64,000 bases of DNA, taken from NCBI GenBank assembly GCA_964019135.1, contig OZ025252.1, positions 47,776,959 to 47,840,958 on the forward strand, written 5' to 3'. The notes under the pieces are model-generated. The model had not been told where the DNA came from. It worked only from the letters and a program-made list of their open reading frames with translations, and made no database searches. Positions within the stretch are counted from its first letter, which is position 1; each line of letters begins with the position of its first letter. This document shows positions 14,344 to 63,269 of this stretch, one piece after another. This DNA comes from Arenicola marina. Lineage: Eukaryota > Annelida > Polychaeta > Arenicolidae. The translations under genes were made by a program, and so were the position numbers.

Positions 14344-14527
14344 ATGGCAGACAGACGACCAGGCAGTTTCCAGTCGCCTTATGGACGCGGATTTAGTCCC
14401 GAACCTGGATTTATCCGCCGGGGAAGTAGTCCCTTCACCAATCGCGGGAGCGGGAGTAGCCGGGGAAGTAGTCCGGCTCCCAGCGATGGTGGCGGAGGAA
14501 TACTCCTTACGATTCAACATTTGGCTG
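14344..14527 (+). CDS. Alternative first exon A of the nesprin-like gene (Gly/Ser/Arg-rich N-terminus)
   Basis: ATG 14344 has G at -3 and G at +4. The frame encodes 61 residues beginning MADRRPGSFQSPYGRG. They are rich in Gly, Ser, Arg and Pro, with the repeated pattern RGSSP / SRGSSPAP, and end GGGILLTIQHLA. It stops at a strong donor, GCTG|GTAAGT, in phase 1. Joined to the common exon at 63208, the split codon gives Asp, so IQHLA runs into DEQERVQKK. In vertebrate nesprins a short helix also precedes this point. A good acceptor (TTATCTTGTCCTTGCAG) at 14120 and a donor at 14044 suggest an upstream untranslated exon. The distance of 49 kb to the CH exon is the main reason for caution. The Gly/Ser/Arg segment looks disordered and could be a phosphorylation or filament-binding region, which is inference. 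Confidence 0.5.
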
Positions 14528-16086
14528 GTAAGTTTCGGAATTAATATTTTTATTGATGATAACGTCTGCCTTATGGGTGAGCAAATTGCTTGTTGCCTGT
14601 CTCGAGAATCTCACATCTTGACCGGCCATTGTATAAAGGATGTTAGTTTATCAAGAAAAAGTTGTATTTACCGGAACCGGTGGCTATTGGGACCCCGCAG
14701 TTATTATTGACTTAACCTGTTATAGTTTTTGTGAGAAAGAAACACATGGATATTGTTTGAAAGGAACAGGTGATCGTTGAATAGCGAGTGTTTCAAAACA
14801 CCGTTACTGCCCTTACGTTAAAGGCTTCAGTCATTCACGGACCAGCTTTGTGCCGCTGACAAAAATAAATAGCTGTGACCGGGGTTATTGCGAAGTGGGT
14901 GGGTGGACGCGGTCAACCGAGCAGCGGGGGGGGGGGGTAGGAAGTGGTGGGGGGGGGGGGGGGGTGGGAGTTGCTACGAGCATTGAGTTGCAAGAGTCAA
15001 ACCCCACCCCATGCTGTGCTTCAAAGCAGGAAGGTGGATCAGAAGGGATCACTTCTATGATATACCTACCTACCAGTCCAGCTTTTCATGAAGTAGCGGA
15101 GGGCAGAGTGGGCGGCCTGGCGGTCAGCTAGATAGTGCTGTGGATGTATGTATTTTCTCTTTGCCTTTGGTCCGGTAAATGCCAGGTGGTTGGTTAGGTG
15201 GGGGTGGTTGGTTAGGTGGGGGTGGGTGGGTGGATGGCTTGCGAGGGGGCGCGAAGCGTGCCCATATCAAGGCCACCCGCTGACGGCCTCAGAGGGCCAG
15301 TCAGAGTGGCAGGTGGGGTGGTGATACACCCCCGCCCCCCACCCACACACACAGCCTGGTCCCGTACCCTTTGGCGGCGTGTGAGGGGATGGGTTACCCT
15401 TGGCATCTGGGTCCCAGATCATGGCGGCTTGCTGCGGCCTGTTGACCGGCAGCAGACGGCCTCGAGGATCGTCTTTTTGGCGGGAAAGCGGTAGCGTTGA
15501 CTCCCGTGCGGAGTGGGCCTCTCAAGTGGCCGCGAGAGGCTATGAAGTCAGCGCGCCTCGCTGTCCGGTGTCACACTGGCCTTGCTGACGTGAATAAATC
15601 ACCGCTATTTGTCCGTGGAGATACAGTGCCATCAAAAAGCGTTACATACGCACCCCTCCGGGCTTTATGTTACATATACAGCGCCCACACACGGGCCACA
15701 AAGGGATTGATATCTAGTATCGTTGAAGACCTCTCGTGAAAAGGGCCACAAAACATGTCGGTACTTTATTAAAGACAAATCTTTGATGGCGTCAAGTACA
15801 GTGTTACTTTAAGCAACACCTACCCTGCTTTGTTATTGGCGACTCTTTATTTGTGATTTAGTGTCGCTGTCTTGGGCAACATTTTGGGCGAACGAATCTC
15901 TGCCAAGCCTCGCGACAGACTTATATATAAACCCGGAAAAAAACAGCTCTCCATTTGCCATTATCTTGGGGTGAACTTAATGTGAACTTTGGATTCAGTA
16001 TTTTTTTGCTGTAAGTCCTCGTACGAAGGGGAATAAATTGTGTTTTAGTTCAGCCAACCTGATCGCATGTATTGCCTCTGTGCTCG
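14528..16086. other. Intronic or intergenic stretch; one weak phase-1 exon candidate
   Basis: G runs near 14925-14965 and GTTGGTTAGGTGGGGGTG duplications near 15190-15230 are present. At 15421 an ATG (A at -3) opens a 23-codon frame starting MAACCGLLTG. It ends in phase 1 at AGCG|GTAGCG, a weak donor. It has the right phase for the common CH exon, but I do not call it. Nothing else is supported. Confidence 0.3.
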
Positions 16087-16124
16087 TGACGCCGGGGTAA
16101 TACATCAGATAGAGCTGTGACGCC
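16087..16124. repeat. 38-bp direct repeat, left copy (flanks a dispersed repeat)
   Basis: The core TAATACATCAGATAGAGCTG occurs here and again at 16323-16360, with three differences over 38 bp. The two copies sit exactly on either side of dispersed repeat copy 2, like an unusually long target duplication or part of a nested tandem. Confidence 0.7.
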
Positions 16125-16322
16125 AGGATGGGCGGGCAGTTTTAATTTTAGCGGGCAGATTTTCAGTTTGGCGGGCCCTCAGGGGCTGTTTACCCGCCCC
16201 AAAAAATGGTCTTTTGGTCAGAAGGTTTAGAAGCTAATCATGACGCTCACAGTTTCACATGAACATTTTCTTCTACCAGCCACAATGTTGGCTGGCAAAA
16301 AAAAAAATTCTGTCTAATACCC
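16125..16322. repeat. Dispersed repeat, copy 2
   Basis: Homologous to 4965-5250 (see that entry) and about 198 bp long. It is GC-richer than copy 1, begins with GGCGGGCAG-type motifs and ends TCTAATACCCTG. It is enclosed by the 38-bp direct repeats. Confidence 0.65.
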
Positions 16323-16419
16323 TGACGCCAGGTTAATACATCAGATAGAGCTGTGATGCCTTGGAGACTCGTGCGCACCGGGGTAAAACGAACCTTATGG
16401 GGGTCAAGGGGACAAATGA

Positions 16420-16498
16420 TAGAGGGTTCGAACCCGAGACTTGTGGACCTGACAGCGAGGTCCCTGTCGCCGTGACAGCAGGATATCACTGAGTGAAC
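16420..16498 (-). repeat. tRNA-like sequence, probably the head of a SINE
   Basis: On the minus strand an A-box-like TCACTCAGTGATA is followed by a stem GGACCT / AGGTCC around a 7-base loop, then a perfect B-box-like GGGTTCGAACCC at 16424-16435. The order and spacing are tRNA-like, but the A-to-B distance is long and the acceptor stem is not convincing. A tRNA-derived SINE or tRNA pseudogene is more likely than a functional tRNA. Confidence 0.4.
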
Positions 16499-17301
16499 GG
16501 GTTGTCAATGGTCCCGCGTGTTGAGACATGTACTTGGCGGGTAGATGGCAGACGAACATCTCTTAGCATTCCTTGCCACACCCGCACCAGTGAAAGTAAA
16601 GTGGCAAGTAGCGACAAAAAAAAACCCTGAGTGTATATTTACGGAGCAGGTACTTTTCTGCATGTGAGTTCTGGTGGCATCGGCGAACCCTGACGTACAG
16701 GTCGCAACGAACGCGCCAGTTGATAATATCTCATCGATTGTCATGTGCTCTACGATGTCTTCGCCGGGCGTCTTTAGCGGGTGGTAGGGGTGGTGGTGGT
16801 GAAGGGTGGGTGGAGGATGGTGACGGGCGTGTTGAGAAGTTGACAGCCAAGGATAGCTGGCGTGAAAGGAGGTTGACGGGCTGAAGCGGTGGGGGGGGGG
16901 GGGCGGGGGGGAGTGGGGGGACGGCAGGGTTACACTGATATGTGATAATATGACCTACTGGTTGGGGCCCTGAACCACGGAAGCCTACCCCCTACCCACC
17001 CCCCCCCCCCCCCGCACGCACACACATCTAATCTTTATGTTATGGTTACATTACTCTTTAAGTAGATACATCAAAACAAGTTTATTTTTCACCAATTATT
17101 TGCTCCTGCACATAGCTCAAGCATTCTTATGATTTTGCTATCAAGCGAAAGAATCTCCTGCACCAAAGCCACCAAGAGAAACCCACAAAGACACTCTAAC
17201 AGATAACTTGCTTTCTTTGTCCCTTCATTGAAGGGGCTTTTGAAATCAAATAAATATTGACTGTTACTAGTCAAACGCTTGGAATAATTCAGTGCATTGT
17301 G
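16499..17301. other. Non-coding stretch with G and C runs
   Basis: Contains GGTGGTGGTG-type simple sequence near 16785, a G-rich run near 16888-16920 and a C run near 16996-17012. No gene is seen. Confidence 0.4.
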
Positions 17302-18819
17302 TCTCCATGGCCCACGCCTCACCCATGTGAAGGGATGGCATCCATGGCCCACGCCTGACCCAAGTTAAGGGATGGCATCCATGGCCCACGCCTGACCCAA
17401 GTGAAGGGATGGCATCCATGGCCCACGCCTGACCCAAGTGAAGGGATGGCATCCATTGCCCACGCCTGACCCAAGTGAAGGGATGACATCCATGGCCCAC
17501 GCCTGACCCAAGTGAAGGGATGGCATCCATGGCCCACGCCTGACCCAAGTGAAGGGATGGCATCCATTGCCCACGCCTGACCCAAGTGAAGGGATGACAT
17601 CCTTGGCCCACGCCTGACCCAAGTGAAGGGATGACATCCATGGCCCACGCCTGACCCAAGTTAAGGGATGGCATCCATGGCCCACGCCTGACCCAAGTGA
17701 AGGGATGGCATCCATGGCCCACGCCTGACCCAAGTGAAGGGATGGCATCCATTGCCCACGCCTGACCCAAGTGAAGGGATGACATCCTTGGCCCACGCCT
17801 GACCCAAGTGAAGGGATGACATCCATGGCCCACGCCTGACCCAAGTGAAGGGATGGCATCCATGGCCCACGCCTGACCCAAGTGAAGGGATGGCATCCAT
17901 GGCCCACGCCTGACCCAAGTGAAGGGATAGCATCCATGGCCCACGCCTGACCCAAGTGAAGGGATGACATCCATGGCACACGCCTGACCAAAGTGAAGGG
18001 ATGGCATCCATGGCCCACGCCTGACCCAAGTGAAGGGATGGCATCCATTGCCCACGCCTGACCCAAGTGAAGGGATGACATCCATGGCCCACGCCTGACC
18101 CAAGTGAAGGGATGGCATCCATGGCCCAGGCCTGACCCAAGTGAAGGGATGGCATCCATGGCCCACGCCTGACCCAAGTGAAGGGATGGCATCCATGGCC
18201 CACGCCTGACCCAAGTGAAGGGATGGCATCCATGGCCCAGGCCTGACCCAAGTGAAGGGATGGCATCCATGGCCCACGCCTGACCCAAGTGAAGGGATGG
18301 CATCCATTGCCCACGCCTGACCCAAGTGAAGGGATGGCATCCATGGCCCACGGCTGACCCAAGTGAAGGGATGGCATCCATGGCCCAGGCCTGACCCAAG
18401 TGAAGGGATGACATCCATGGCCCACGCCTGACCCAAGTGAAGGGATGGCATCCATGGCCCACGCCTGACCCTAGTGAAGGGATGACATCCATGGCCCACG
18501 CCTGACCCAAGTGAAGGGATGGCATCCATGGCCCACGCCTGACCCAAGTAAAGGGATGACATCCATGGCCCACGCCTGACCCAAGTGAAGGGATGGCATC
18601 CATTGCCCACGCCTGACCCAAGTGAAGGGATGGCATCCATGGCCCACGCCTGACCCAAGTGAAGGGATGGCATCCATGGCCCACGCCTCACCCATGTGAA
18701 GGGATGACATCCATGGCCCACGCCTGACCCAAGTAAAGGGATGGCATCCATGTCCAACGCCTGACCCAAGTGAAGGGATGACATCCATGGCCCACGCCTG
18801 ACCCAAGTGAAGGGATGGC
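17302..18819. repeat. 37-bp minisatellite, 41 copies
   Basis: Units of 37 bp contain CCATGGCCCACGCCTGACCC and AAGTGAAGGGATGGCAT. Copies differ mainly by GGCATC/GACATC and by CATGGC/CATTGC. The minus strand is free of stops in all frames (up to 505 codons), which is a property of the unit. No donor or promoter supports a gene. Confidence 0.97.
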
Positions 18820-19582
18820 TGATCGGGGGTTCCAGTGTGACGCGACATACCTGGGCCTCCTTTACTGAGATTCCTCTCCTAACCGTGTCCTGATATTGCT
18901 GTGTTTATGGCTTTTTTTATGCGACATCTTGTCGTGTATCATAATAAGACATATGCATGACCAGCTCATTTGTTTCTGGGTCACCCCTTGGCCCTAGTCA
19001 GTCGTCATAGCAGGGTGGCAGGGTGGTATGGTCACGTGGGTTCTGCCGGGAGCAAGCCGCTCGAGCACATGTATGCGTAACAACGGTATCTCTTGACAAC
19101 AATAAGTTGGAGGGTCGGAGGGACATGGCTCCTTGTTCCCTGACACTTGGCGTTGAATGTGGCGATGTGACAGGTTCACCCCTGTCCACCTTGCACTGAT
19201 TCTGTAACCGATCTGGGGCCACTACCACCACCGTGATGAGGCGTCGGCAAATACTGTCACGCGAACTGTGTCACTTGAATGTGTCTCTCACTTCAGTGTC
19301 CAGTGTCTCAGTGTCATTATATTGCGTCAGGATGCTTTGGCACGGCGGTATTTGTGTTTTTGAATATGTTTCTAATTGTAGCATATATAGGCTATTCAAT
19401 GGTTTTTTGGTGCCTTCCACGCCGTGTGTTAATATTTGCCCACTCGTTTGCGTGGTTCACTAGCAGACTGGCCCTGCTGGCGTCGTCAGCGTCAGGTCAA
19501 TATTGACAGAGGTGTGCTAGTAAAACCCTCTCACATAGACATATATATATCCGTTACTTGAGGGGACGGTGGTTACTGGTTT
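18820..19582. other. Non-coding stretch with no recognised gene
   Basis: Unique sequence with short overlapping open frames on both strands. None has a recognisable domain or convincing splice sites. Confidence 0.3.
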
Positions 19583-19810
19583 CGGTAGTTGATGCAGTTG
19601 GTAGTCGATGCAGTCGGTAGTCGTTGCAGTCGGTGATCAATACAGTCGGTAGTCACTACAGCCGGTAGTCACTACAGCCGGTAGTCACTACAGTCGGTAG
19701 TCGTTGCAGTTGGTAGTCACTACAGGCGGTAGTCACTACAGCCGGTAGTCACTACAGTCGGTAGTCGTTGCAGTTGGTAGACACTACAGTCGGTAGTCGT
19801 TACGGTAGTC
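19583..19810. repeat. 16-bp minisatellite, about 14 copies
   Basis: Units follow GGTAGTCACTACAGCC / GGTAGTCGTTGCAGTC with alternating variants, so some pairs of units behave as 32-bp repeats. Confidence 0.9.
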
Positions 19811-20187
19811 ATGAAGAGCCGTTTTACCTATTGCATCGTGACATTAGATGCCAACCATGCTAGAGGTTGTGTGACCTTGACCTTGAGTGGTGTCGATATC
19901 AGGTATTTACTTCCCCACTGTTGCCCACCCCCCTCACTCACCCCTCGGCGGGTGATTGATGAGACGGGTAGAACAGGGAGTGGGGGCGAGTGTGGTTTTT
20001 TATTCATCATGTTCATAGGGAATCTGCTCCTCAAATAAAGGTCAAATTGAGGTCGAGCCTTTTGTGCAAAAGGACAGTCCTGCCTCAAATGTCACATGGA
20101 TTTTTGACCCGGTTTAACCTTCATGTGCACAATAGTGGCATAAACCACCAAGATTCCATGTCCAAGCGGTAAGCTGTACAGTCGTGG
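19811..20187. other. Short unique spacer
   Basis: Contains GTGACCTTGACCTTGAG at 19871-19887, a tandem nuclear-receptor-type half-site repeated exactly at 30929. No gene is seen. Confidence 0.3.
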
Positions 20188-20512
20188 TGTTGGACGTCCG
20201 TGTGGGGCCATTGGACATCCGTGAGAGGCCATTGGACATCCGTGTGGGGCCATTGGACGTCCGTGTGGGGCCATTGGACGTCCGTGAGGGGCCATTGGAC
20301 GTCCGTGTGAGGCCATTGGACATCCGTGAGAGGCCATTGGACGTCCGTGTGGGGCCATTGGACATCCGTGAGAGGCCATTGGACGTCCGTGTGGGGCCAT
20401 TGGACGTCCGTGAGGGGCCATTGGACGTCCGTGTGAGGCCATTGGACGTCCGTGAGGGGCCATTGAACGCCCGTGTGAGACCATTGGACGTCCGTGTGAG
20501 GCCATTAGTCGA
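20188..20512. repeat. 21-bp minisatellite, about 15 copies
   Basis: The unit is GGCCATTGGACGTCCGTGTG plus one base, with GTGTGG/GTGAGA/GTGAGG variants. Being 7 codons long it leaves both strands open, which explains the His/Gly/Arg/Pro-repeat frame on the minus strand. Confidence 0.93.
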
Positions 20513-20755
20513 ACCAGCTTGGCTGGTATTAGGTGTAGTACACCAACCTATTATTGAATACTGTTTACTGATGTATCTAGTGGTTTAGACGGGTCAGTGG
20601 TGTCAGCCACTCCAGGAGGTGGCCTGTTATTCTCAGGTCCTGATACATGGTAGTATTACGCTCACAAAAGAACATGTTAGTGCCAAGGGCTACATTTATG
20701 CGGAGGTGAATTTTGCTGTGGAGGTCTGCATACTATGTAGACTGTCTAAGGGTTA

Positions 20756-21050
20756 ACCTGGGGTGTAACTATGGAGACGATGTAGGGTGAATAAAAGCTG
20801 ACATAGAGTGTAACTATGGAGACGATGTAGGCTGTATAACAGCTGACATAGGGTGTAACTATGGAGAAGATGTAGGCTGTATAACAGCTGACCTAGGGTG
20901 TAACTATGGAGACGATGTAGGCTGTATAACAGCTGACCTAGGGTGTAACTATGGAGACGATGTAGGCTGTATAACAGCTGACCTAGGGTGTAACTATGGA
21001 GACGATGTAGGCTGTATAACAGCTGGCCTAGGGTGTAACTATGGAGACCA
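20756..21050. repeat. 45-bp minisatellite, about 6.5 copies
   Basis: The unit contains GTGTAACTATGGAGACGATG and TAGGCTGTATAACAGCTGAC. The CAGCTG in each unit is an E-box. Confidence 0.92.
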
Positions 21051-21423
21051 TGTAGACCATGTGCAACGGCATAATCACATTGCTAAGCCTGCTATATGTA
21101 TATATATATCTATATGACTCAGCGGTTCCTCCCTTGTTTCCCAGCTCGTGCGTGTTGGGCGTGGGCCGGTTCCGTTGCCATGGTATCCTGTAGGGTTACA
21201 TAACGTCTGCTGGGCAGATGACGAGACGAAGCGGAGATGTGTGGCGGAGGTACCAGGCCGGGTGAACGCCTGGGCGGGCGGGGATGTGTGTGTGTGTGGG
21301 GGGGGGGGGGGGGGTAGTACTAGAGCTACAGCCGCGCTTATTGTTGATAGAATACGTGGGGTAGGGGGAAGGGATGCGAGTGGGTGGGGTGCTGGAACTA
21401 GGTTTCCTTCTCACATACCTCAT
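21051..21423. other. Short spacer with a G run
   Basis: A GT-rich and G-run segment near 21284-21314. No gene is seen. Confidence 0.3.
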
Positions 21424-21863
21424 TGTGCAAGATAACCTGGAATCTCTGCCAGCGATGGCATGAGCACATGGGCTAACGAGAGAAGATAACCTGGAATCTC
21501 TGCCAGCGATGGCATGAGCACATGGGCTAACGAGATAAGATAACCTGGAATCTCTGCCAGCGATGGCATGAGCACATGGGCTAACGAGATAAGATAACCT
21601 GGAATCTCTGCCAGCGATGGCATGAGGACATGGGCTAACGAGATAAGATAACCTGGAATCTCTGCCAGCGATGGCATGAGGACATGGGCTAACGAGATCA
21701 GATAACCTGGACTCTCTGCCAGCGATGGCATGAGCACATGGGCTAACGAGATAAGATAACCTGGAATCTCTGCCAGCGATGGCATGAGCACATGGGCTAA
21801 CGAGATAAGATAACCTGGAATCTCTGCCAGGGATGGCATGAGCACATGGGCTAACGAGAGAAG
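21424..21863. repeat. 54-bp minisatellite, 8 copies
   Basis: Units contain GATAACCTGGAATCTCTGCC and GATGGCATGAGCACATGGGC. On the minus strand the 18-codon unit stays open. I regard that frame as a by-product because there is no gene context. Confidence 0.93.
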
Positions 21864-22796: not shown

Positions 22797-24505
22797 TCGA
22801 TGGCAGCCAGGGGGAGGGAGCTACAGCGGTGAGGACGGTCGGCGATGGCAGCCAGGGAGAGGGAGGTACAGCGGTGAGGACAGTCGGCGATGGCAGCCAG
22901 GGAGAGGGAGGTACAGCGGTGAGGACGGTCGGCGATGGCAGCCAGGGAGAGGGAGGTACAGCGGTGAGGACGGTCGGCGATGGCAGTCAGGGAGAGGGAG
23001 GTACAGCGGTGAGGACGGTCGGCGATGGCAGCCAGGGAGAGGGAGGTACAGCGGTGAGGACGGTCGGCGATGGCAGCCAGGGGGAGGGAGGTACAGCGGT
23101 GAGGACGGTCGGCGATGGCAGCCAGGGAGAGGGAGGTACAGCGGTGAGGACGGTCGGCGATGGCAGCCAGGGAGAGGGAGGTACAGCGGTGAGGACGGTC
23201 GGCGATGGCAGCCAGGGAGAGGGAGGTACAGCGGTGAGGACGGTCGGCGATGGCAGCCAGTGGGAGGGAGGTACAGCGGTGAGGACGGTCGGCGATGGCA
23301 GCCAGGGAGAGGGAGGTACAGCGGTGAGGACGGTCGGCGATGGCAGCCAGGGAGAGGGAGGTACAGCGGTGAGGACGGTCGGCGATGGCAGCCAGGGAGA
23401 GGGAGGTACAGCGGTGAGGACGGTCGGCGATGGCAGCCAGGGAGAGGGAGGTACAGCGGTGAGGACGGTCGGCGATGGCAGCCAGGGAGAGGGAGGTACA
23501 GCGGTGAGGACAGTCGGCGATGGCAGCCAGGGAGAGGGAGGTACAGCGGTGAAGACGGTCGGCGATGGCAGCCAGGGAGAGGGAGGTACAGCGGTGAGGA
23601 CGGTCGGCGATGGCAGCCAGGGAGAGGGAGGTACAGCGGTGAGGACGGTCGGCGTTGGCAGCCAGGGAGAGGGAGGTACAGCGGTGAGGACGGTCGGCGA
23701 TGGCAGCCAGGGGGAGGGAGGTACAGCGGTGAGGACGGTCGGCGATGGCAGCCAGGGAGAGGGAGGTACAGCGGTGAGGACGGTCGGCGATGGCAGCCAG
23801 GGGGAGGGAGGTACAGCGGTGAGGACGGTCGGCGATGGCAGCCAGGGAGAGGGAGGTACAGCGGTGAGGACGGTCGGCGATGGCAGCCAGGGGGAGGGAG
23901 GTACAGCGGTGAGGACGGTCGGTGATGGCAGCCAGTGGGAGGGAGGTACAGCGGTGAGGACGGTCGGCGATGGCAGCCAGGGAGAGGGAGGTACAGCGGT
24001 GAGGACGGTCGGCGATGGCAGCCAGGGAGAGGGAGGTACAGCGGTGAGGACGGTCGGCGATGGCAGCCAGGGAGAGGGAGGTACAGCGGTGAGGACGGTC
24101 GGCGATGGCAGCCAGTGGGAGGGAGGTACAGCGGTGAGGACGGTCGGCGATGGCAGCCAGGGAGAGGGAGGTACGGCGGTGAGGACGGTCGGCGATGGCA
24201 CCCAGGGAGAGGGAGGTATAGCGGTGAGGACGGTCGGCGATGGCAGCCAGGGGGAGGGAGGTACAGCGGTGAGGACGGTCGGCGATGGCAGCCAGGGAGA
24301 GGGAGGTACAGCGGTGAGGACGGTCGGCGATGGCAGCCAGGGAGAGGCAGGTACAGCGGTGAGGGCGGTCGGCGATGGCAGCCAGGGGGAGGGAGGTACA
24401 GCGGTGAGGACGGTCGGCGATGGCAGCCAGGGAGAGGGAGGTACAGCGGTGAGGACGGTCGGTGATGGCAGCCAGGGGGAGGGAGGTACAGCGGTGAGGC
24501 CTCAT
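22797..24505. repeat. 45-bp minisatellite, about 38 copies
   Basis: Units contain GGCGATGGCAGCCAGGGAGA and GGGAGGTACAGCGGTGAGGA. They are very homogeneous; the main variant is GGGGGAGG for GGAGAGGG. Since 45 is a multiple of 3, one frame on the plus strand is open for 600 codons and three minus-strand frames for up to 677. I see no signal, splice sites or other domain, so I do not call a gene. Confidence 0.97.
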
Positions 24506-24604: not shown

Positions 24605-25362
24605 TCTCCAGGTCTGATCGCATGGTCCTCCAATGGGTCTGATCGCATGGTCCTCTAATGGGTCTGATCGCATGGTCCTCCAATGGGTCTGATCGCATGG
24701 TCCTCCAATGGGTCTGATCTCATGGTCCTCCAATGGGTCTGATCTCATGGTCCTCCAATGGGTCTGATCGCATGGTCTTCTAATGGGTCTGATCGCATGG
24801 TCCTCCAATGGGTCTGATCTCATGGTCCTCCAGTGGGTCTGATCTCATGGTCCTCCAATGGGTCTGATCTCATGGTCCTCCAATGGGTCTGATCTCATGG
24901 TCCTCCAATGGGTCTGATCGCATGGTCCTCCAATGGGTCTGATCTCATGGTCCTCCAATGGGTCTGATCGCATGGTCCTCCAATGGGTCTGATCGCATGG
25001 TCCTCTAATGGGTCTGATCTCATGGTCCTCCAATGGGTCTGATTTCATGGTCCTCCAATGGGTCTGATCTCATGGTCCTCCAATGGGTCTGATCGCATGG
25101 TCCTCTAATGGGTCTGATCGCATGGTCCTCCAATGGGTCTGATCTCATGATCCTCCAATGGGTCTGATCGCATGGTCCTCCAATGGGTCTGATCTCATGG
25201 TCCTCCAGTGGGTCTGATCTCATGGTCCTCCAATGGGTCTGATCTCATGGTCCTCCAATGGGTCTGATCGCATGGTCCTCCAATGGGTCTGATCGCATGG
25301 TCCTCCAATGGGTCTGATCTCATGGTCCTCCAATGGGTCTGATCTCATGGTCTTTTCAATGG
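24605..25362. repeat. 25-bp minisatellite, about 30 copies
   Basis: The unit is GGGTCTGATCGCATGGTCCT followed by CCAAT. Variants are GATCTC/GATCGC and CTCTAAT/CTCCAAT. The 3' edge decays into partial units up to about 25420. Confidence 0.96.
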
Positions 25363-25420
25363 GTCTGATGATTGGTCTGATCATGGTCTGATCATCGTCT
25401 TGTCCCTGGTCTCATCATTG

Positions 25421-38235: not shown

Positions 38236-39149
38236 CTTAAGTGAAAGCGATGTCCCCTGACCGGTTGGAATGTCGCGACCAGTGTGTGGATGACACAGTC
38301 CTGGACAGAGAGGGATGTTGTGTTTGCTGAGGACTTAGCGAGACCCCGGCGGGGCAGGCCTCCAACCATAGAGCCATACGCTCAAAATACAAGATTTCAT
38401 ATGTAGTAATGTCTAATGTGACTGCTCACCCTGATCGCATGTGGGTGAGGAGAGGGTCGGGGGGGGGGGGGGGGGTGCTACAGGACGATGACTCATAAGG
38501 AAATGGCTTATCAAAAGGCCCAAATAACAACGTGACAGCTCTGGCTGGTTGCAAACTATGAAACTTGAAATACATTGGTACCTTCTGTTGTGAAGGGTTA
38601 ATGTACCACCACATGAGACATCAAACATTTGTGGCATCATTGAGGTATAGGTCCCGTACTAACTTGCCTGGGGCTTAGCCGATTCGTCGTTAATTTGCAG
38701 ACTGTTCGCTTATGTATACATTGCATAATTTCATATAATAAAGGCTATATATACATAAACAGATACTCGTATAATCTTGGCGAGCAGGCACCCCATGTCG
38801 TCGTGGGTCCCACGCCCTGTGGAGTGGCTCTGCCCCGGTGTCTGTGTCCTGGTTCACCTAGAGATATCCTCAGCATGCCGAGGTATCCTGCAGAGGATTG
38901 TGGGAAGGTCACGTGACCTAGATGGTTAAATGCACCCATTTCGCTGTACATGTATCTTGTTTTCTCGGACCAAACAACTTGTGATTGACAGTTGTTGGGT
39001 TGCTGAGTACTGACTGTTTCAGTCCTAATTGGCCGTTCATATGTAGTCCGTATCACAGTGTGATGCAGTGCATATGGTAAGGTAGGGTACAGGGATGGGA
39101 TGGGATGTTGGTGAGTGGGTGGGCGGGAGAGGTAAGTTTCAATGGAACA
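38236..39149. other. Non-coding stretch with a G run
   Basis: A poly-G tract lies near 38459-38475. No gene is seen. Confidence 0.3.
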
Positions 39150-41092
39150 GAAGTGTGGGGGGAGGGGTGACATTCAATGGAACAGAAGTGTGGGGGGAGG
39201 GGTGACATTCAATGGAACAGAAGTGTGGGGGGAGGGGTGACATTCAATGGAACAGAAGTGTGGGGGGAGGGTAGTCATTCAATGGAACAGAAGTGTGGGG
39301 GGAGGGGTGACATTCAATGGAACAGAAGTGTGGAGGGAGGGGTGACATTCAATGGAACAGAAGTGTGGGGGGAGGGGTGACATTCAATGGAACAGAAGTG
39401 TGGAGGGAGGGGTGACATTCAATGGAACAGAAGTGTGGAGGGAGGGGTGACATTCAATGAAACAGAAGTGTGGAGGGAGGGGTGACATTCAATGGAACAG
39501 AAGTGTGGAGGGAGGGGTGACATTCAATGGAACAGAAGTGTGGGGGGAGTGGTGACATTCAATGGAACAGAAGTGTGGGGGGAGGGGTGACATTCAATGG
39601 AACAGAAGTGTGGGGGGAGTGGTGACATTCAATGAAACAGAAGTGTGGAGGGAGGGGTGACATTCAATGGAACAGAAGTGTGGAGGGAGGGGTGACATTC
39701 AATGGAGCACAATTGTGGGGGGAGGGGTGACATTCAATGAAACAGAAGTGTGGAGGGAGGGGTGACATTCAATGGAACAGAAGTGTGGAGGGAGGGGTGA
39801 CATTCAATGGAGCACAATTGTGGGGGGAGGGGTGACATTCAATGGAACAAAAGTGTGGAGGGAGGGGTGACATTCAATGGAACAAAAGTGTGGGGGGAGG
39901 GGTGACATTCAATGGAACAAAAGTGTGGAGGGAGGGGTGACATTCAATGGAACAGAAGTGTGGGGGGAGTGGTGACATTCAATGAAACAGAAGTGTGGAG
40001 GGAGGGGTGACATTCAATGGAACAGAAGTGTGGGGGGAGTGGTGACATTCAATGAAACAGAAGTGTGGAGGGAGGGGTGACATTCAATGGAACAGAAGTG
40101 TGGAGGGAGGGGTGACATTCAATGGAACAGAAGTGTGGGGGGAGGGGTGACATTCAATGGAACAGAAGTGTGGGGGGAGTGGTGACATTCAATGAAACAG
40201 AAGTGTGGAGGGAGGGGTGACATTCAATGGAACAGAAGTGGAGGGAGGGGTGACATTCAATGGAGCACAATTGTGGGGGGAGGGGTGACATTCAATGAAA
40301 CAGAAGTGTGGAGGGAGGGGTGACATTCAATGGAACAGAAGTGTGGAGGAAGGGGTGACATTCAATGGAGCACAATTGTGGGGGGAGGGGTGACATTCAA
40401 TGGAACAAAAGTGTGGAGGGAGGGGTGACATTCAATGGAACAGAAGTGTGGGGGGAGTGGTGACATTCAATGAAACAGAAGTGTGGAGGGAGGGGTGACA
40501 TTCAATGGAACAGAAGTGTGGAGGGAGGGGTGACATTCAATGGAACAGAAGTGTGGGGGGAGGGGTGACATTCAATGAAACAGAAGTGTGGAGGGATGGG
40601 TGACATTCAATGGAGCACAATTGTGGGGGGAGGGGTGACATTCAATGGAACAAAAGTGTGGAGGGAGGGGTGACATTCAATGGAACAGAAGTGTGGGGGG
40701 AGGGGTGACATTCAATGGAACAGAAGTGTGGGGGGAGGGGTGACATTCAATGAAACAGAAGTGTGGAGGGAGGGGTGACATTCAATGGAACAGAAGTGTG
40801 GAGGGAGGGGTGACATTCAATGGAGCACAATTGTGGGGGGAGGGGTGACATTCAATGGAACAAAAGTGTGGAGGGAGGGGTGACATTCAATGGAACAGAA
40901 GTGTGGAGGGAGGGGTGACATTCAATGGAACAGAAGTGTGGAGGGAGGGGTGACATTCAATGGAGCACAATTGTGGGGGGAGGGGTGACATTCAATGAAA
41001 CAGAAGTGTGGAGGGAGGGGTGACATTCAATGGAGCACAATTGTGGGGGGAGGGGTGAAATTCAATGGAACAAAAGTTTGGAGGGAGGGGTT
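39150..41092. repeat. 35-bp minisatellite, about 55 copies (largest array)
   Basis: The unit is ATTCAATGGAACAGAAGTGT followed by GGAGGGAGGGGTGAC. Three unit types (GGAACAGAAG, GAAACAGAAG, GGAGCACAATT) recur in short ordered blocks, so homogenisation acted on multi-unit blocks. One strand is G-rich throughout. Confidence 0.97.
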
Positions 41093-42516: not shown

Positions 42517-42610
42517 ATGGCCCGCCGCTCGGTGTTTGGTGAGGCCAGGACTGACGGCATCCACACGGCACTGGATTCACTCTACGTACGCCACTTCCAG
42601 CAGCTTAAAG
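42517..42610 (+). CDS. Alternative first exon C of the nesprin-like gene
   Basis: ATG 42517 has G at -3 and G at +4. It encodes 31 residues, MARRSVFGEARTDGIHTALD then SLYVRHFQQLK, and ends in phase 1 at TTAAAG|GTACTC. Spliced to 63208 the split codon is Asp, giving HFQQLK-DEQERVQKK. Human nesprin-1 has a very similar junction (VMQRLQ-DEQEIVQKR), an amphipathic lead-in helix to the CH domain. This makes it one of the most family-like candidates. The donor lacks G at +5, its weakest point. The frame continues nine codons into the intron before a stop. Confidence 0.55.
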
Positions 42611-43615: not shown

Positions 43616-44442
43616 TTGCCGCGCACCCCATTACTATGACAACCCCGCTCACGGCCGGGCACCCATTACTATGACAACGCCGGTCACGGCCGGGCACCCC
43701 ATTGCTATGACAACCCCGCTCACGGCCGGGCAACCCATTACTATGACAACCCCGCTCACGGCCGGGCACCCCATTACTATGACAACCCCGCTCACGGCCG
43801 GGCACCCCATTACTATGACAACCCCGCTCACGGCCGGGCACCCCATTACTATGAAAACCCCGTTCACGGCCGGGCACCCCATTACTATGACAACTCCGCT
43901 CACGGCCGGGCACCCCATTACTATGCCAACCCCGCTCACGGCCGGGCACCCCATTACTATGACAACCCCGTTCACGCCCGGGCACCCCATTACTATGACA
44001 ACCCCGCTCACGGCCGGGCACCCCATTACTATGACAACCCCGCTCACGGCCGGGCACCCCATTACTATGACAACCCCGTTCACCGCCGGGCACCCCATTA
44101 CTATGACAACCCCGTTCACGGCCGGGCACCCCATTACTATGACAACCCCGCTCACGGCCGGGCACCCCATTACTATGACAACCTCGCTCACGGCCGGGCA
44201 CCCCATTACTATGACAACCCCGCTCACGGCCAGGCACCCCATTACTATGACAACCCCGCTCACGGCCGGGCACCCTATTACTATGACAACCCCGCTCACG
44301 GCCGGGCACCCTATTACTATGACAACCCCGCTCACGGCCGGGCACCCCATTACTATGACAACCCCGCTCACGGCCGGGCACCCCATTGCTATGACAACCC
44401 CGCTCACGGCCGGGCACCCATTACTATGACAACCCCGGTCAC
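43616..44442. repeat. 36-bp minisatellite, about 23 copies
   Basis: The unit is ATTACTATGACAACCCCGCT followed by CACGGCCGGGCACCCC. It has 12 codons, so frames stay open on both strands (252-279 codons). The array is highly homogeneous and CpG-containing. Confidence 0.96.
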
Positions 44443-44514
44443 GGCTGGCTCAACCGTGTCACCTAGCGGGGGTACTGGCAGCTTGGTGCTTGCTTCATAC
44501 CCCATGGATGAGTG

Positions 44515-46622: not shown

Positions 46623-46692
46623 ATGGCGGCATCTCCGAACGGCCGTTTGCAAGGACTAAAGTTTGAGGATGATAAGATCAAGGCCAAACACG
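46623..46692 (+). CDS. Alternative first exon D of the nesprin-like gene
   Basis: ATG 46623 (G at -3, G at +4) encodes 23 residues, MAASPNGRLQGLKFEDDKIK then AKH, and ends in phase 1 at a strong donor ACACG|GTAAGC. With the common exon the junction reads KAKH-DEQERVQKK. The short charged helix-like segment fits a CH-domain lead-in. An upstream ATG at 46614 in another frame ends after 14 codons and could lower translation. Confidence 0.55.
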
Positions 46693-50567: not shown

Positions 50568-50751
50568 ATGTTGTGGGGTTTACTTCTGGCTCGACTGCCC
50601 TTCTGGACGTATTGCGTCATTGCGTTGTGTGTGTACCCGGCCTGCCTCCCGGTGTGGCCCACGCCCACTCCCGACCGGGAGAGGGACACCCCGCGGTCTC
50701 CCTGGCTCCCAGCCATGAGAGCCGCGGGCCGAGGGAGCTCTATCAGACCAG
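50568..50751 (+). CDS. Alternative first exon E of the nesprin-like gene (membrane-anchor-type N-terminus)
   Basis: Start choice is ATG 50568 (A at -3) or in-frame ATG 50547 (seven residues longer, G at -3 and +4). From 50568 it encodes 61 residues. The first 30 are hydrophobic (MLWGLLLARLPFWTYCVIAL then CVYPACLPVW), followed by a Pro/Arg-rich stretch with TPTPDRERDTPRSP and an end GRGSSIRP. It ends in phase 1 at a strong donor ACCAG|GTATGA, and the junction would read SSIRP-DEQERV. The hydrophobic stretch could be a signal anchor or transmembrane helix, comparable to the dystonin isoform with an N-terminal membrane segment. Three CRE sites lie just upstream. Codon use is GC-rich and the frame stays open past the donor, so experimental proof is needed. 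Confidence 0.5.
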
Positions 50752-54576: not shown

Positions 54577-54673
54577 ATGTTCTCGTGCTGCGGGATGAGG
54601 AAGCACCGTGATTGCCGACGCTGCGATCTGCCTTCCCAAGTCTCCAGCATCTATTTAGAAATCTACACGCTCA
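54577..54673 (+). CDS. Alternative first exon G of the nesprin-like gene (Cys-rich N-terminus)
   Basis: ATG 54577 (G at -3) encodes 32 residues, MFSCCGMRKHRDCRRCDLPS then QVSSIYLEIYTL. It ends in phase 1 at a perfect donor, CTCA|GTAAGT. The split codon with the common exon is Asn: IYTL-NEQERVQKK. Five cysteines among the first 16 residues, next to basic residues, resemble membrane-proximal palmitoylation clusters (inference). The frame has a stop 70 bp upstream and no earlier in-frame ATG, so this start is the only choice. Confidence 0.5.
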
Positions 54674-56697: not shown

Positions 56698-56828
56698 CTG
56701 TGTGTGTCACGTGTGTGTGTCACGTGCGTGTGTCACGTGTGTGTGTCACGTGTGTGTGTCACGTGTGTGTGTCACGTGCGTGTGTCACGTGCGTGTCACG
56801 TGTGTGTGTCACGTGTGTGTGTCACGTG
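56698..56828. repeat. 13-bp repeat with ten CACGTG E-boxes
   Basis: The unit is CACGTGTGTGTGT or CACGTGCGTGTGT, with one shortened unit. Each carries a full palindromic E-box. It lies between exons G and H, so a regulatory role is possible but not shown. Confidence 0.92.
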
Positions 56829-57235
56829 TCATTGTAGTTGACGTCACAGACGCAGATCGCGGTTTAGCGTGCCGTGCTTGACCACGACTCCTGTTGGCTC
56901 GACTGCTGCGCTTTAAAAACACAGGAGTTTTGTCAAAAATTGACGTAGACAGTAAACCTATGTACAAGAGTCACTTTATGGGGTGGAGTGAGGTCATGTA
57001 GGAAATGAGGGCCCGGCGGGGGGTGAAGGCGGGGGGGGGGGTGCAATGGTAAAATCCTCAGATATGTATATTCTACAAACAGCGAAAATCCGAGACGACA
57101 ATTAGTGATCTCTTGGCATCCTTGGCGTCTCATTAACATGGCCGAGTTTACAGGGCCAGCCTGGAATGTTCCTTGTGGGACTTAACAATCCCAGGCATGC
57201 GTCCAGTGTGTTGTGATAGTGATTCCCGAAGGCAA

Positions 57236-57535
57236 CGCCCCAGCATGGAGCGCCACCAGCATGAAGCGCCCCCTACACGGAGCGTCTCCCACACAGAGCG
57301 CCCCTAGCATGGAGCGCCTCTAGCATTGGGCGCCCCTACACGGAGCGCCTCCTACACGGAGTGCCCCTACAGGGAGCGCCTCTAGCATTTGGCGCTCCTA
57401 CACGGAGCGCCTCTTAAACTCCGTGCTAGAGCGCCCGCTAGCATGGAGCGCCCCCTACACGGAGCCCCCCCTTTACGGAGCGCCCCTTACACAGACCGCC
57501 CCCAGCATGGAGCGCCCCCTACACGGAGAGAGGAA
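57236..57535. repeat. Irregular GGAGCGCC-type repeat
   Basis: Units of about 16-24 bp are built on AGCGCCCCCTACACGG and AGCATGGAGCGCC. The lengths vary, so it is a degenerate array. Confidence 0.8.
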
Positions 57536-57665
57536 CTCTGACAGTGTCGAACTTACTGGGCCCAGGTCGGCTGGACACGTGTGATAGCCCTGGTGTGGTG
57601 TTACCGAGTGCACTGACGGTGACGAGACATGTGGGGGCGTGTGATGGACAGAGCCGAGACAGCTC

Positions 57666-58582
57666 TGACACTTTTGGTCCAGTACTGACACTTGTGGTCC
57701 ACTACTGGCATTGTGGTCCAGTACTGACACTTGTGGTCCAGTGCTGACACTTGTGGTCCAGTACTGACACTTGTGGTCCAGCTCTGACACTTGTGGTCCA
57801 GCTCTGACACTTGTGGTCCAGTACTGACACTTGTGGTCCAATACTGATACTTGTGGTCCAGTACTGACACTTGTGGTCCAGTACTGACACTTGTGGTCCA
57901 GTACTGACACTTGTGGTCCAGTACTGACACTTGTGGTCAAGCTCTGACACTTGTGGTCCAGTACTGACACTTGTGGTCCAATTCTGACACTTGTGGTCCA
58001 CTACTGGCATTGTGGTCCAGTACTGACACTTGTGGTCCACTACTGGCATTGTGGTCCAGTACTGACACTTGTGGTCCAGTGCTGACACTTGTGGTCCAGT
58101 ACTGACACTTGTGGTCCAATTCCGACACTTGTGGTCCAGCTCTGACACTTGTGGTCCAGCTCTGACACTTGTGGTCCAGTACTGACACTTGTGGTCCAAT
58201 ACTGACACTTGTGGTCCAGTACTGACACTTGTGGTCCAATACTGACACTTGTGGACCAGTACTGACACTTGTGGTCCAGTACTGACACTTGTGGTCCAAT
58301 TCTGACACTTGTGGTCAAGCTCTGACACTTGTGGTCCGGTACTGACACTTGTGGTCCAATTCTGACACTTGTGGTCCAGCTCTGACACTTGTGGTGCAGT
58401 ACTGACACTTGTGGTCCAGTACTGACACTTGTGGTCCAGCTCTGACACTTGTGGTCCAGCTCTGGTACTTGTGGTCCAGCTCTGGTACTTGTGGTCCAGC
58501 TCTGGTACTTGTGGTCCAGCTCTGGTACTTGTGGTCCAGCTCTGGTACTTGTGGTCCAGCTCTGGTACTTGTGGTCCGGTAC
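57666..58582. repeat. 20-bp minisatellite, about 46 copies
   Basis: The unit is TACTGACACTTGTGGTCCAG with TACTGA/CTCTGA/TTCTGA/CTCTGG variants. The last six units form a homogeneous CTCTGGTACT subgroup. The minus strand is open in three frames (up to 320 codons), a by-product. Confidence 0.96.
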
Positions 58583-60464
58583 CGAATCCGCAAACAATAA
58601 CCACAATAATAGTAACGAAATTTAATAATAAAATATGTTGGTAATAATGATAATATTGATCCATTTAAAATAATGCGAGGAGTTGTTGATATGTCACTAT
58701 ATTACTATATTTGAATCAGCCATCTCCGCCACAGTTAATACTTTCTACTACTTGTACATTGTATTAAAGTGTTCGTGCCGCGCCAAAACAACTTTAGCTC
58801 ATATTAATCTTCTGTGTGTCCGCGCTTATATTATTGAGCTGTAACGCCCCAAATAGTAGAAGGGCATACTTTTTCCACTTGTTTTCGCACTTACCAATGT
58901 AACTTCTGCGAGCAAGGAAAGTGACGTCAAAGGGGAATACAAACTCACGTGCTTTTATATTGAGACTCAGATTCTGTCTGCTCATTGGCTTGAACTCAAC
59001 GAAACGCACTCAACCATGAAAACAATACACGCCCTCGACCACAGATGTCTACGCACTGCCTCAAAGCTCACCTGTCAATCTTGTGACATCATTGGGGAAT
59101 TTTCAAATAACGCTCAGATGCAATGCTCCCAGAAACAAACCCGCCGGACCTCACTTTTGCTACTTTAACGAACCCGTTTATAGTGATATCGTGGAATAAA
59201 AACTATAAACTCCCATTAAAACAAATTGTTATTTGTTTATCTTCCCTAAACCAAGTTAAATATGATCAAGACAAAATCGTGGCACGAACACTTTAATATC
59301 GGAACATGTATTAGAAGAATAGGCGTATAGAAGTGTTTACTGAGACGTGATCCATTGCACCCGGAATGCTCGGAAAAAACACGCACCAACGGCGCGTTGT
59401 GGCTGATAGAGCTGATGGTGTCTGCACGGAGTCCCACAGAACCACGGAGACGTGGGGGGTGGGGGGGGGGGGGTAATAGATTGATTGTATGAACGGAGAA
59501 TGCGGCCTGTGTACGCAGCACTTCACATGAGGTACCATGTAAAGTCTCGGAGACCTGGGCGCAATTAGCCGGTACCGGTGCTATATGTATGTACACTCGT
59601 CTGATTTATAAACCTCGGTCCGTGCTATAAGCTCTGGGCCTTCGCAGAAACAATCTGATAGCGACCTCTGGGAGACGTTTGCTGCGGTGCCTACCAACTC
59701 ATCCATATTCAGGACATGAGTGACCCTGCGAGGGCGCCGTTTTGCCACTTCACACCCCATCCCACCCCATCCCCAATACCCCCTTCCCCACCCACCTATA
59801 TCATACCCCCCGCTCCCCCGCCACCCCCCATCGCGATCTGTGATCTGTCGCCCTTGTGGCGTGCGAGTTGAAATGGACACCTGTGTTGGTCCAGACACGA
59901 TATGCGACACCTCCGCGTCTTGTGCTCATTATGTGGACAGCAGTGGCCATAAAGCGACCACAGGGATCAGCCTTCTGGCCACTCGGTCATAGCCCTGCCC
60001 CCCTCTGTCACTCACTGGACGGTCAGCCATAGCACAGCCCCCTATGTCACTCTCTGGACGCTGCCCTGCTACCCGAATCTAACCCGAATCGGCGTTTCCC
60101 GATAGCTTTACGCATGGATTACCCCATGGATGACTGTGGAGTAGCAGTTTACTCAGTGCGGGGTTCCCTGGAAGTGGAAGTGAAGCAATGGCTTCTCCGG
60201 GGGATTAGCGAAATCAAACGGAAGTTGGTAGCGGTGCTATAACTTCCGGTTGAACACAGCTCAACAAAAGGCACTCGCACATTTGCGATTTGCGGAACCG
60301 TATTTATTCATCATAATGATGACATTTTAATGTATATTTATTAAACACAGTACTTCACCGTTAAGCCAAGATGCGGAATACGTCGGAATATGTGACCTTA
60401 ATCCTTCAGACTCCGACATCTCACAAAGATGCATGTCGTTACGTGTGACGTAACTTAGGTTGCC
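58583..60464. other. Promoter-side stretch of exon H
   Basis: AT-rich to 59300, with a G run near 59458. A TGACGTAA motif (CRE/ATF-like) at 60446-60453 lies 12 bp before the exon H start codon. No other coding exon is seen. Confidence 0.35.
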
Positions 60465-60666
60465 ATGGATACCGATGATCATGTGACGATAGACCTGCGT
60501 CGCCGCGTGAGTCGCGAGTTCCGTCGCCGGGCGACCGTGGAGGATGCGGGTGATGACGTAGAGGATCACGTGACCCCCGCCCGCCACCTGATGGATTGGT
60601 ACCAGGGGCTGGAGCGGGGGGAGGGTGTCAAGGTGTCCAAGGAGATGGAAATGTTGATGAAGAAAG
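60465..60666 (+). CDS. Alternative first exon H of the nesprin-like gene (closest to the CH exons)
   Basis: ATG 60465 lies in an ideal context (GCCATGG). It encodes 67 residues, MDTDDHVTIDLRRRVSREFR, then RRATVEDAGDDVEDHVTPAR, then HLMDWYQGLERG, ending VSKEMEMLMKK. It is rich in charged residues with clear protein-like codon periodicity, and ends in phase 1 at GAAAG|GTAGAT. The junction reads MLMKK-DEQERVQKK. The final part is a predicted amphipathic helix like those preceding nesprin CH domains. It is the nearest candidate (2.5 kb) to the common exon and the one with the best start context, so it is my first choice for the main promoter. Confidence 0.65.
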
Positions 60667-63207
60667 GTAGATCTACTAAATGAGGAGGTATCATCTTCAT
60701 CGTTAACGTCCGCCTAAGCGCTTAGTAGTATTAAAGTGCTCCAGGTGTGAGTAATAAGTGAGGGGTTCAGACAATGATTCACAAAGAACGATCAATTGTA
60801 GACCAAGATATATGGGCAGTGGTATAGCTGGAAAGGGGCACATATATGTGTGATTTTCTTCCATTGTATATTGTTCACTATTGTGAACACAAACTGTTGA
60901 GTGTTGTGCTGGGTGGGAGGCGGTCATCACCATGTGTTGATCAGTTTGGGCGACACTGGACACGGTCTCTGCATGGACTCTCTGGGGTCAGGGGCCCGAG
61001 GGGTGGCAGGAAGAGGGGAGGGGTGAGGGATAGAGGGTGGGGAAGGCAGGCCGTCGGACACGGGTACATGTTAACTGAACCAGCCCACATGTAAATAGCG
61101 CTGTGCATAACTCTCAGAGAGGAAACACGAATGTGACCAATGTACGTTATTCCAGCGATTGAAGTGACGTTGGACATTGGTCTGGGTTCCGTCTCCCATT
61201 GCTTCAATTCACGAATACATTGGTGTTTTCGGCCAACTCTGTGAACACATTGGCGCCACCGCCCAATGCTAATAAGATGCCTGATACGTGAACTGATCCT
61301 CGGAGCCGCACGGCAGTGACTTCTGCCCCCTCCCGCCCACCGACCCTCCGACCCACCGATCAAGGATTGTGTTCTATTGACCAGGGTTTGACTTCGGTTA
61401 AACAAGTTGGTCAGCTTGTCAAGAGCTGACCGGAAGGGACTGCAGCCCCCCCACCCTCCCAACACACACACACCCGGCTCCCGCACACCGACCCACCAGC
61501 CAGGGACTGTGTTCCGTTATTACCAGGCTTTGACTTGGTTAAACAACGTGGTCCGCTTGTCCAGAGCTGACCGGAAGTGGTCACTGTTGTGTAGAGAGAC
61601 CGCCAACGAAGACCTGTTTGCTTTACCCCAGCAATGGTGTCCATTTTGATTGGATTATTGCACTGGAACTGTCGCGTTGCCCTCGCGGTGTCTTGCTGGC
61701 CTTAGATTACAATTACTGTTCAACACTTTCTTCAACACATGGCCCGCCAGCCATGACTGCCCTAAGTCAGCGTTATGCGGTGCAAACAACGACAGTTAAG
61801 GTCGAAACAAGGAAATATCAGTGATTACATCACCCACTTTGATTGCCTTATAAAATGTGTAAATGCTGAATTGACAGTTGTGTTTTTACAACTGTGAGGT
61901 ATTTTTACCTTTCTTAAAACCCGAAATATTGATTTCGGTCGCCTCACTTGGAAAGTGTAATCTGTAGCAATCATGAGATTTTGTACCCTGTGCCCTGGCT
62001 GGTGGTCTAATGGATCCCCCCTGGCAGTCTAAGTGGCAGGCCGCCCTATGATTTCACACTTACCGGCGGGTTGGGGGTTGTGAGTGGGGGGGGGGGAGGG
62101 GGCATTGTAAAGCCCCTTTGACAGGCGTGGAGCCATCAGCCGTGTTGAGACTTGTCACGTGGCAGAGCGCGCCAATACCTGGTAGGACTGTTCGCGCCGT
62201 GTGTCAGCAGAGATCGTATAGTAGGTAATCTCTGGTGTCAGTGCGTGCTACTCTACTCTCGATCATGGCCTCGCACCCACTGACGTGTGGAAGGTTTTTC
62301 GGGTGTTAAATACTTAGTGTTGTTATTCGGCCTCCATTACTCTGTTATACCTACACGTTTCCCTGATCGGTAATCTATAGGGGACTTGATTTCACAGCAA
62401 AACATATAAATATGGCAATATTAACCTTAAGGATACCTTTGCATCGGTTTATAGTGGACATTCAACTGTTTTACGAATCGTAATGTAATACATTAGAGAG
62501 AGGGGGAGGGGAAGAGGGTAAGACTGGGTAAGACTGCAGCGAGCGTAAGAGAGTGCCGCTTTCTTGGAAATCGTTTGTCGACATGTTGCATGTGATTACT
62601 GTAATTATATGGAGGCCGCCAACTCAAAACATGCGGCTAATGTTTGCAATCCACGGTTGTTGATCATGTTGATACTGGATATATGGTAATTAAAGAGATT
62701 AAGATGCGGTGCTTGATAGTAGTGACAGAAAGTAGTCATAATGTAAACCAGAAGGGTTTCATAACGCGTCCAGCATGTGTGTGTTAAAACATACGGCGAG
62801 CTCTCTGCTTCAGGCTCGGTACTCAACCCCGAGTGTTCGGCCATTTAATCTCGTTTCTGTGTGCAGCCATTAGTCTACAAGTGTGCACTGAGGTTTGATA
62901 CATTGTGTTGTGCCGCATGTAAGGTTCATTACCTTCCGTAGCTGTAACATGGCCAGACAATAAGGAGGCACAGCGATTTATTGGAACAGCTCAGTCATGT
63001 AAAGTGTACCCTGTACATGTAGTCCAGCCACGCTAGACTCCGTGCCGCCACGTTGGTCCGCGACATATATGTCCAAGTTGGGAGCGGTCCGCGTTCAACT
63101 TGCGACAGTGTTTATTACGTAGATATCTGCCTCGGTTATTGGGATCGAGCTGTAATATATGTGATGTCTCCGTATGTCTCTACATCTCCCTTCTTGGTTG
63201 CTTGCAG
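60667..63207. other. Intron between exon H and the common CH exon
   Basis: Two blocks share text: GACCGGAAGGGACTGCAGCC near 61428 and CCACCGATCAAGGATTGTGTTC near 61352 correspond to parts of 61495-61580, a diverged local duplication of about 140 bp. A G run lies near 62085. No coding exon is seen. Confidence 0.4.
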
Positions 63208-63269
63208 ATGAACAAGAGCGGGTACAAAAGAAAACATTCACCAACTGGATCAACTCCTACCTCGTCAAA
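63208..63269 (+). CDS. Nesprin/SYNE-like protein: common exon, start of CH domain 1
   Basis: A 62-bp exon with acceptor TTGGTTGCTTGCAG and donor AAA|GTAAGT. It starts with two bases of a split codon (phase 1) and ends in phase 0. It encodes (D)EQERVQKKTFTNWINSYL then VK. QKKTFTNWIN matches the actinin-type actin-binding signature 1 (Q-x-x-T-F-x-x-W-x-N). A DEQE-xVQK start is typical of nesprins, while spectraplakins have DERDRVQKK. Nesprins (Drosophila MSP-300) anchor nuclei to actin as the outer part of LINC complexes at the nuclear envelope. The phase-1 entry is what all upstream first exons must match. A spectraplakin is the main alternative. Confidence 0.85.

Follow-up and report, generated by a model that had tools for sequence, protein, structure and literature searches.

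How does one gene place different N-termini in front of a single actin-binding domain? The question is raised by a stretch of 64,000 nucleotides from the annelid Arenicola marina (from here on, the window; C5:47776959-47840958 of the 867-Mb genome, with positions counted from its first letter), which carries the 5' end of a nesprin gene. An earlier note on this DNA had proposed that six alternative first exons all feed one exon that opens the CH-type actin-binding domain. Our comparisons make it probable that alternative promoters do place differing heads on this one domain, namely the head encoded at position 14344 and at least the one encoded at 42517.

Which gene is this? Two exons near the right end of the window bear on its identity:

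63208-63269, + strand: common exon in which the first CH domain starts; entered in phase 1, left in phase 0; reads DEQERVQKKTFTNWINSYLVK
63899-63994, + strand: next CH exon; HVPPMRMEELFEDIKDGVRLLCLLEVLSGEKL; sequence matches to relatives

The first of these, 62 nt long, lies between the acceptor TTGCTTGCAG and a GTAAGT donor. Its CH reading requires phase-1 input, as the earlier note had held, and entered in this way it translates to (D)EQERVQKKTFTNWINSYLVK, the initial 19 residues of which are 100% identical to those of the nemertean Tubulanus. The second exon is 83% identical to Solemya over 88% of a 40-residue query, and a database search with it returned four proteins: two unnamed CH/spectrin-repeat proteins (Solemya and Lymnaea) and nesprin-1 from a killifish and a chimaera. 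The CH exons match the Pfam CH model at 35.2 bits (cut-off, 26), and exons for both CH1 and CH2 were mapped. With six relatives as tblastn queries, 65 clusters were obtained from 63177 to 159529, counting + strand matches alone and excluding those on the minus strand. These clusters are the basis for a long spectrin-like rod downstream of the CH exons. A single KASH match in the entire genome exceeded the cut-off (C5:48029154-48029312; E 6.6e-15); it sits 188 kb past the end of the window, on the same strand as the CH exons, and ends in ...SEEDYSCVLANNLRHTMQYMDGPPPF and a stop (...QYMDGPPPF). On the strength of the CH exons, the tblastn clusters, and the same-strand KASH match, the gene is, by its sequence, a nesprin of the SYNE1/Msp300 type, which upholds its earlier assignment to the nesprin family of an invertebrate; it would span ∼238 kb from the ATG at 14344 to KASH, provided that splicing is continuous over that length. 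In a tree of CH domains, the window protein falls outside the sampled molluscs, nemerteans, flatworms, vertebrates, and arthropods (supports 86 to 88).

Could the gene instead be a plakin (plectin, dystonin, or MACF1)? In a search of the Protein Data Bank, the two CH exons matched the actin-binding domains of plectin, MACF1, spectrin, and dystrophin, with plectin best, and the plectin and MACF1 matches are good. The matches listed for the Solemya and Tubulanus queries were mostly nesprins, with a hagfish "epiplakin-like" protein among the best. These observations point towards a plakin; however, we rejected that identity on the presence of the same-strand KASH match and the zero plakins among the four database matches of the CH exon. 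Plakins are not known to have a KASH domain.

What leads into the common exon? The six proposed segments are the following (a slash marks the exon/intron boundary; the head classes and the class-free test are described below):

14344..14527, + strand: first coding exon (by homology), class A head, MADRRPGSF...GGILLTIQHLA; donor CTG/GTAAGT
42517..42610, + strand: probable alternative first exon, class B head, MARRSVFGEARTDGIHTALDSLYVRHFQQLK; weak donor AAG/GTACTC (0.4)
46623..46692, + strand: candidate alternative first exon, class C-like, MAASPNGRLQGLKFEDDKIKAKH; donor ACG/GTAAGC
60465..60666, + strand: candidate alternative first exon, MDTDDHVTIDLRRRV...KEMEMLMKK; donor AAG/GTAGAT
50568..50751, + strand: proposed first exon, unsupported; class-free rank 430/558; CpG 53rd percentile; stop 126 nt upstream
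54577..54673, + strand: proposed first exon, unsupported; class-free rank 273/558; donor TCA/GTAAGT (1.7); stop 72 nt upstream

Their basic description was correct: in order of position, each starts with ATG, is open, has a length of 1 mod 3 (184, 94, 70, 184, 97, and 202 nt), and ends at a GT. The statement that five of the donors are strong was not borne out. Scored with a general metazoan matrix, the donors reach 6.6 (14527), 4.8 (46692), 4.4 (50751), 2.7 (60666), 1.7 (54673), and 0.4 (42610); G at +5 is missing at 60666 as well as at 42610, and the exon side is poor at 54673. Four donors of the gene's own CH exons score 5.5, 6.0, 6.3, and 1.5 with the same matrix. Is a set of six such segments more than chance would supply? 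Between 13.9 and 63.2 kb, the + strand has 55, 52, and 47 ATG-led segments with a donor of at least 0.4 (phases 0, 1, and 2, respectively), compared to 41, 46, and 25 for the reverse strand; raising the cut-off to 4.3 leaves 7 and 6 in phase 1. The + strand thus shows no excess, the counting of donors and phases was rejected as evidence for an array, and the six-segment set is within chance expectation. Taken singly, the segment at 14344 is far above chance and that at 42517 probably so, as judged by comparison with other nesprins.

For this comparison, we assembled 145 proteins from the best 120 of 1013 matches to the Solemya query, the best 120 of 3948 to the Tubulanus query, and those from the exon search. 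Heads were read as the residues preceding EQERVQ (or EQExVQ), which gave 124 usable tails; 11 proteins lacked the junction motif, and 10 had a tail that was too short or contained X. N-termini vary between species ahead of the same CH residues in gastropods, arthropods, and vertebrates. Class A heads, I..(T/V)I..LQ and similar, occur in molluscs, the nemertean Lineus, insects (EYQATIHQLQ), rotifers, and vertebrate SYNE1 (DIANVMQRLQ). Class B heads occur in arthropods (RSEYDAHIAEIK-DEQ, the hyphen marking the junction, and EYDAHIAQIK) and in four gastropods (such as KAFIDRVHLLK-DEQ and RAFTNRVNWLK-DEQ). Class C heads occur in flatworms (EEKITARK, EQKISSRR) and, more loosely, in Tubulanus (VDDKRQTYK); the class was coined after the likeness of 46623 to Tubulanus had been noticed, so that its ranks are post hoc. 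A further vertebrate head, SLNLVTGFFQYLR, stands outside these classes. Babylonia areolata has two nesprin-like proteins, P0007 and P0012, on contigs differing in size and both with class A heads, and its nesprin may therefore be duplicated.

Profiles of the final 14 residues of classes A, B, and C were scored on all ATG-led phase-1 segments, 558 of them targets (+ strand of the interval) and 2565 controls, which came from the opposite strand of the interval, from the left flank on either strand, and from the right flank on its reverse strand. A class-free test took the best BLOSUM62 match against any of the 124 tails; the targets rank 1 (14344), 2 (42517), 6 (60465), 38 (46623), 273 (54577), and 430 (50568), with 0, 9, 41, 201, 1366, and 2072 controls as good, respectively. 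Candidate peptides were also aligned freely and locally to N-termini of up to 120 residues, with 60 shuffles per candidate; as good an alignment was reached by 0 shuffles for 14344 and 42517, 8 for 46623, 19 for 50568, 35 for 60465, and 43 for 54577.

The segment at 14344, whose N-terminus resembles those of bivalve and gastropod nesprins, is clearly a true first exon by these comparisons, 48.9 kb upstream of the CH exon. Its peptide is colinear from end to end with Solemya MADRRS...GIQVTIQQLQ, with MADRR first and TIQ.L last. It scores 15.5 bits for class A, rank 1 of the 558, with 0 of the 2565 controls as good (next target, 6.3; best control, 4.4), and the best of 10268 control sites reaches 10.5 bits when the ATG requirement is dropped. 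It keeps rank 1, with 0 controls as good, under a class A profile of 24 proteins from which molluscs and nemerteans were excluded.

Is there a second head? The segment at 42517 scores 5.5 bits for class B, rank 1 of the 558, and none of the 2565 controls is as good. With an arthropod-only profile it again ranks 1 (0.7 bits, 0 controls), and with a gastropod-only profile it ranks 2 (1.3 bits, 4 controls). Its head of 31 residues falls within the 23 to 31 of the four gastropod class B heads. We conclude that 42517 is probably a second, alternative first exon, one that survives a discount for multiple looks.

The remaining segments fare less well. For class C, 46623 ranks 3 of 558 (4 of 2565 controls as good), moving to rank 1 with a Tubulanus-only model (2 controls) and rank 9 with flatworms only (26 controls); these ranks weigh little because each of six candidates had three classes to match and the class C label came only afterwards. 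The segment at 60465 ranks third for both the arthropod class B profile and the flatworm profile, fitting neither class clearly, and no colinear homologue of it was found among the comparison proteins. Either could possibly be an alternative first exon, and neither clearly survives the multiple-looks discount, as 42517 does. The segments at 50568 and 54577 look like chance by these tests. The array of six thus shrinks to one established and one supported member, with two possible and two unsupported.

How would such a gene work? The ancestral distal start would be 14344, and a different head would come from one or more internal starts, 42517 among them. Promoter choice would select the first exon, each promoter giving a 5' UTR (untranslated region) and a short coding head; every first exon would end in phase 1 and be spliced past the intervening ones onto the 62-nt exon at 63208, so that the short head would vary and the actin-binding domain stay constant. 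The segment at 42517 would then be transcribed from its own promoter, under a regulated choice. The heads might act as addresses, and since they stand directly before the first CH helix they could tune actin binding. Two patterns in other animals are of the kind expected. In some cases, related species show heads of unlike classes, as would follow if both classes were isoforms: Biomphalaria A and Bulinus B, Patella A and Lottia B, Babylonia A and Nucella B, Phlebotomus A and Sergentomyia B, Drosophila takahashii A and D. busckii B, and Lineus A and Tubulanus C. Furthermore, all 16 mollusc-like and nemertean proteins (P0009 being included on its tree position) have N, H, or D (codons xAY) immediately before EQERVQ. 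These are residues predicted for an exon that begins with AT or AC and is entered in phase 1, tyrosine being the fourth that is allowed.

Several observations weigh against alternative heads in this gene. The donor of 42517 is weak, and its class B scores are low in absolute terms with all three profiles. If sites need not start with ATG, 2 of 10268 controls outscore it; an initial gastropod-only profile placed it 8th of 3976 sites; and in the class-free test 9 controls equal it. In free local alignment, its best match falls out of register and was left unused for that reason, despite the 0 of 60 shuffles. Arthropod class B heads are mostly far over 31 residues. Six candidates times three classes make 18 looks. 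The class swaps depend on predicted genes, and the database behind them is clustered at 90% identity, so that isoforms of one gene would mostly collapse and one head be shown; both heads on a single gene were seen in none of the 145 proteins drawn from it. The xAY pattern is missing in most flatworms (C, A, G, S, or M; one D) and in six flies (E), exceptions that also weaken the class C comparison of 46623. Codon usage was rejected as uninformative: trained on 5581 codons of the gene's rod and CH exons (36 in-frame stops within the tblastn ranges removed), it does not separate the candidates, and even 14344 is low, resembling noncoding DNA.

A rival reading is a gene with a single first exon, in which 14344 would be the sole coding start and the other five would be ATG-donor pairs that arose by chance within a large first intron rich in minisatellites. 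The near-equal phase-1 counts on the two strands (52 and 46), the lack of significant alignment of 46623, 50568, 54577, and 60465 to the compared N-termini, and the weak donor and low scores of 42517 are all as this would have it. It does not account for the place of 42517 at the top of 558 targets and 2565 controls for class B, the arthropod-only profile included, nor for the occurrence of class B heads in both gastropods and arthropods, and we consider it unlikely.

Are all six segments used, as in a full plectin-style array? All six are in phase 1, and the surroundings of three are rich in CpG, as promoters can be: among 552 unmasked windows, the 500 bases around 42517, 46623, and 60465 stand at percentiles 0.966, 0.964, and 0.955 (those around 42517 touch a masked array), with 14344 at the 91st and 54577 at the 86th, and with the stretch at 63208, which is not a first exon, also at the 91st. 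However, 50568 and 54577 lie deep in the null distribution with their upstream stops far off, and the donors at 54673, 60666, and 42610 are weak, which makes a full array very improbable. In-frame stops lie 18, 21, 15, and 9 nt before the ATGs of 14344, 42517, 46623, and 60465, and in the same four a G directly follows the ATG; with CpG, these features are hints from tests not picked in advance. It is just as improbable that 42517, 46623, or 60465 is an internal cassette exon or a piece of another transcript: none of the six ATGs has a TATA-type match within the preceding 300 bases, so that no promoter is shown, but the stops 9 to 21 nt before the three ATGs prevent in-frame read-through unless an acceptor lies inside those few bases.

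Searches of other kinds gave little for the interval. Pfam left the peptides of 14344, 50568, and 60465 unmatched and gave nothing above cut-off for 20 of 108 open frames (all from 30.9 to 61.5 kb); Rfam gave zero matches in the whole window. In a search for repeat origin, in which the tool skips very common words, 42517, 46623, 54577, and 60465 were each single in the genome. Minisatellites with units of 20 to 45 bp in 23 to 56 copies crowd the interval before the CH exon:

17304-18819: minisatellite
22798-24499: minisatellite
24611-25369: minisatellite
39138-41091: minisatellite
43618-44445: minisatellite
57665-58582: minisatellite

In several of these arrays, long open frames persist on either strand and may mislead open reading frame finders. 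In the 35-bp array at 39000-41000, CpG observed/expected is 0.08 and 0.00 per kb, compared to 0.66 and 0.73 in the adjoining kilobases. The left neighbour is NUP133 on the - strand (about -9400 to -8350, perhaps to 3319; phmmer E 8e-14 to Nup133 chains), another nuclear-envelope gene, which points away from the nesprin. An open frame at 2930-3319 looks like NUP133 propeller by eye and is unmatched in Pfam; the 5' end of NUP133 was not found in 3.3-14.3 kb. Other CH starts in this genome appear by eye to belong to beta-spectrin, filamin, and alpha-actinin (L002, C5:10095261; L004, C1:10769255; L005, C5:25418402).

Do alternative heads on a nesprin have precedents? In plectin and dystonin/MACF1, an array of alternative first exons is joined to one shared exon where the actin-binding domain begins. 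The layout proposed here would be the same, and plectin is the best solved-structure match of the two CH exons; the four database matches of the CH exon, two nesprin-1 and two unnamed CH/spectrin-repeat proteins, include no plakin. The earlier note knew of no comparable description in an invertebrate nesprin, but one study reports two start sites for Drosophila Msp300, the orthologue of nesprin-1; they lie at exon 1 and exon 3, upstream of the CH domains, and each gives CH-containing isoforms (PMC8616381). Dipteran proteins likewise show class A and class B heads, in separate species, and these may be the products of the two known starts of Msp300. In contrast to Msp300, the class A exon here is 48.9 kb upstream, the class B candidate is 28 kb nearer the CH exon, up to two further candidates exist, and the arrangement is predicted from genome sequence. 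Vertebrate SYNE1 places DIANVMQRLQ-DEQ (class A-like) or SLNLVTGFFQYLR-DEQ ahead of the same CH residues; the second is not class B and was compared with the window in the class-free test alone. In the portions available, reports on human nesprin describe starts located deeper in the gene, as well as N-terminal variants that differ at their 3' ends (PMC3388047, PMC4948682), one on Caenorhabditis elegans describes anc-1b, without CH domains (PMC8139857), and the available part of another does not treat first exons (PMC3646009).

Alternative first exons of a nesprin are therefore of an ordinary, known kind, and the 5' region is long and repeat-filled. More interesting, and perhaps new, is that heads A and B recur in different phyla. 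This suggests an old set of interchangeable heads in nesprins, with class A, I..TI..LQ, across Bilateria, class B, (Y/F)..(H/R)(I/V)..(I/L)(K/R), in protostomes, and perhaps class C in flatworms, nemerteans, and Arenicola marina, a proposal that we give somewhat less than an even chance. For giant genes without RNA, comparing the residues that precede a fixed splice junction across species offers a means of separating genuine first exons from chance ones. A study of C. elegans ANC-1 reports that its CH domains are not needed to anchor nuclei in the skin syncytium, citing similar results in mouse (PMC8139857), and one on fly muscle ascribes a Z-disc role to CH-containing isoforms (PMC8616381). 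If the heads are conserved, the CH end would have a regulated job of its own, such as this Z-disc role, and if the set of heads is indeed old, the choice of head on a nuclear actin-binding protein would be an ancestral regulatory switch.

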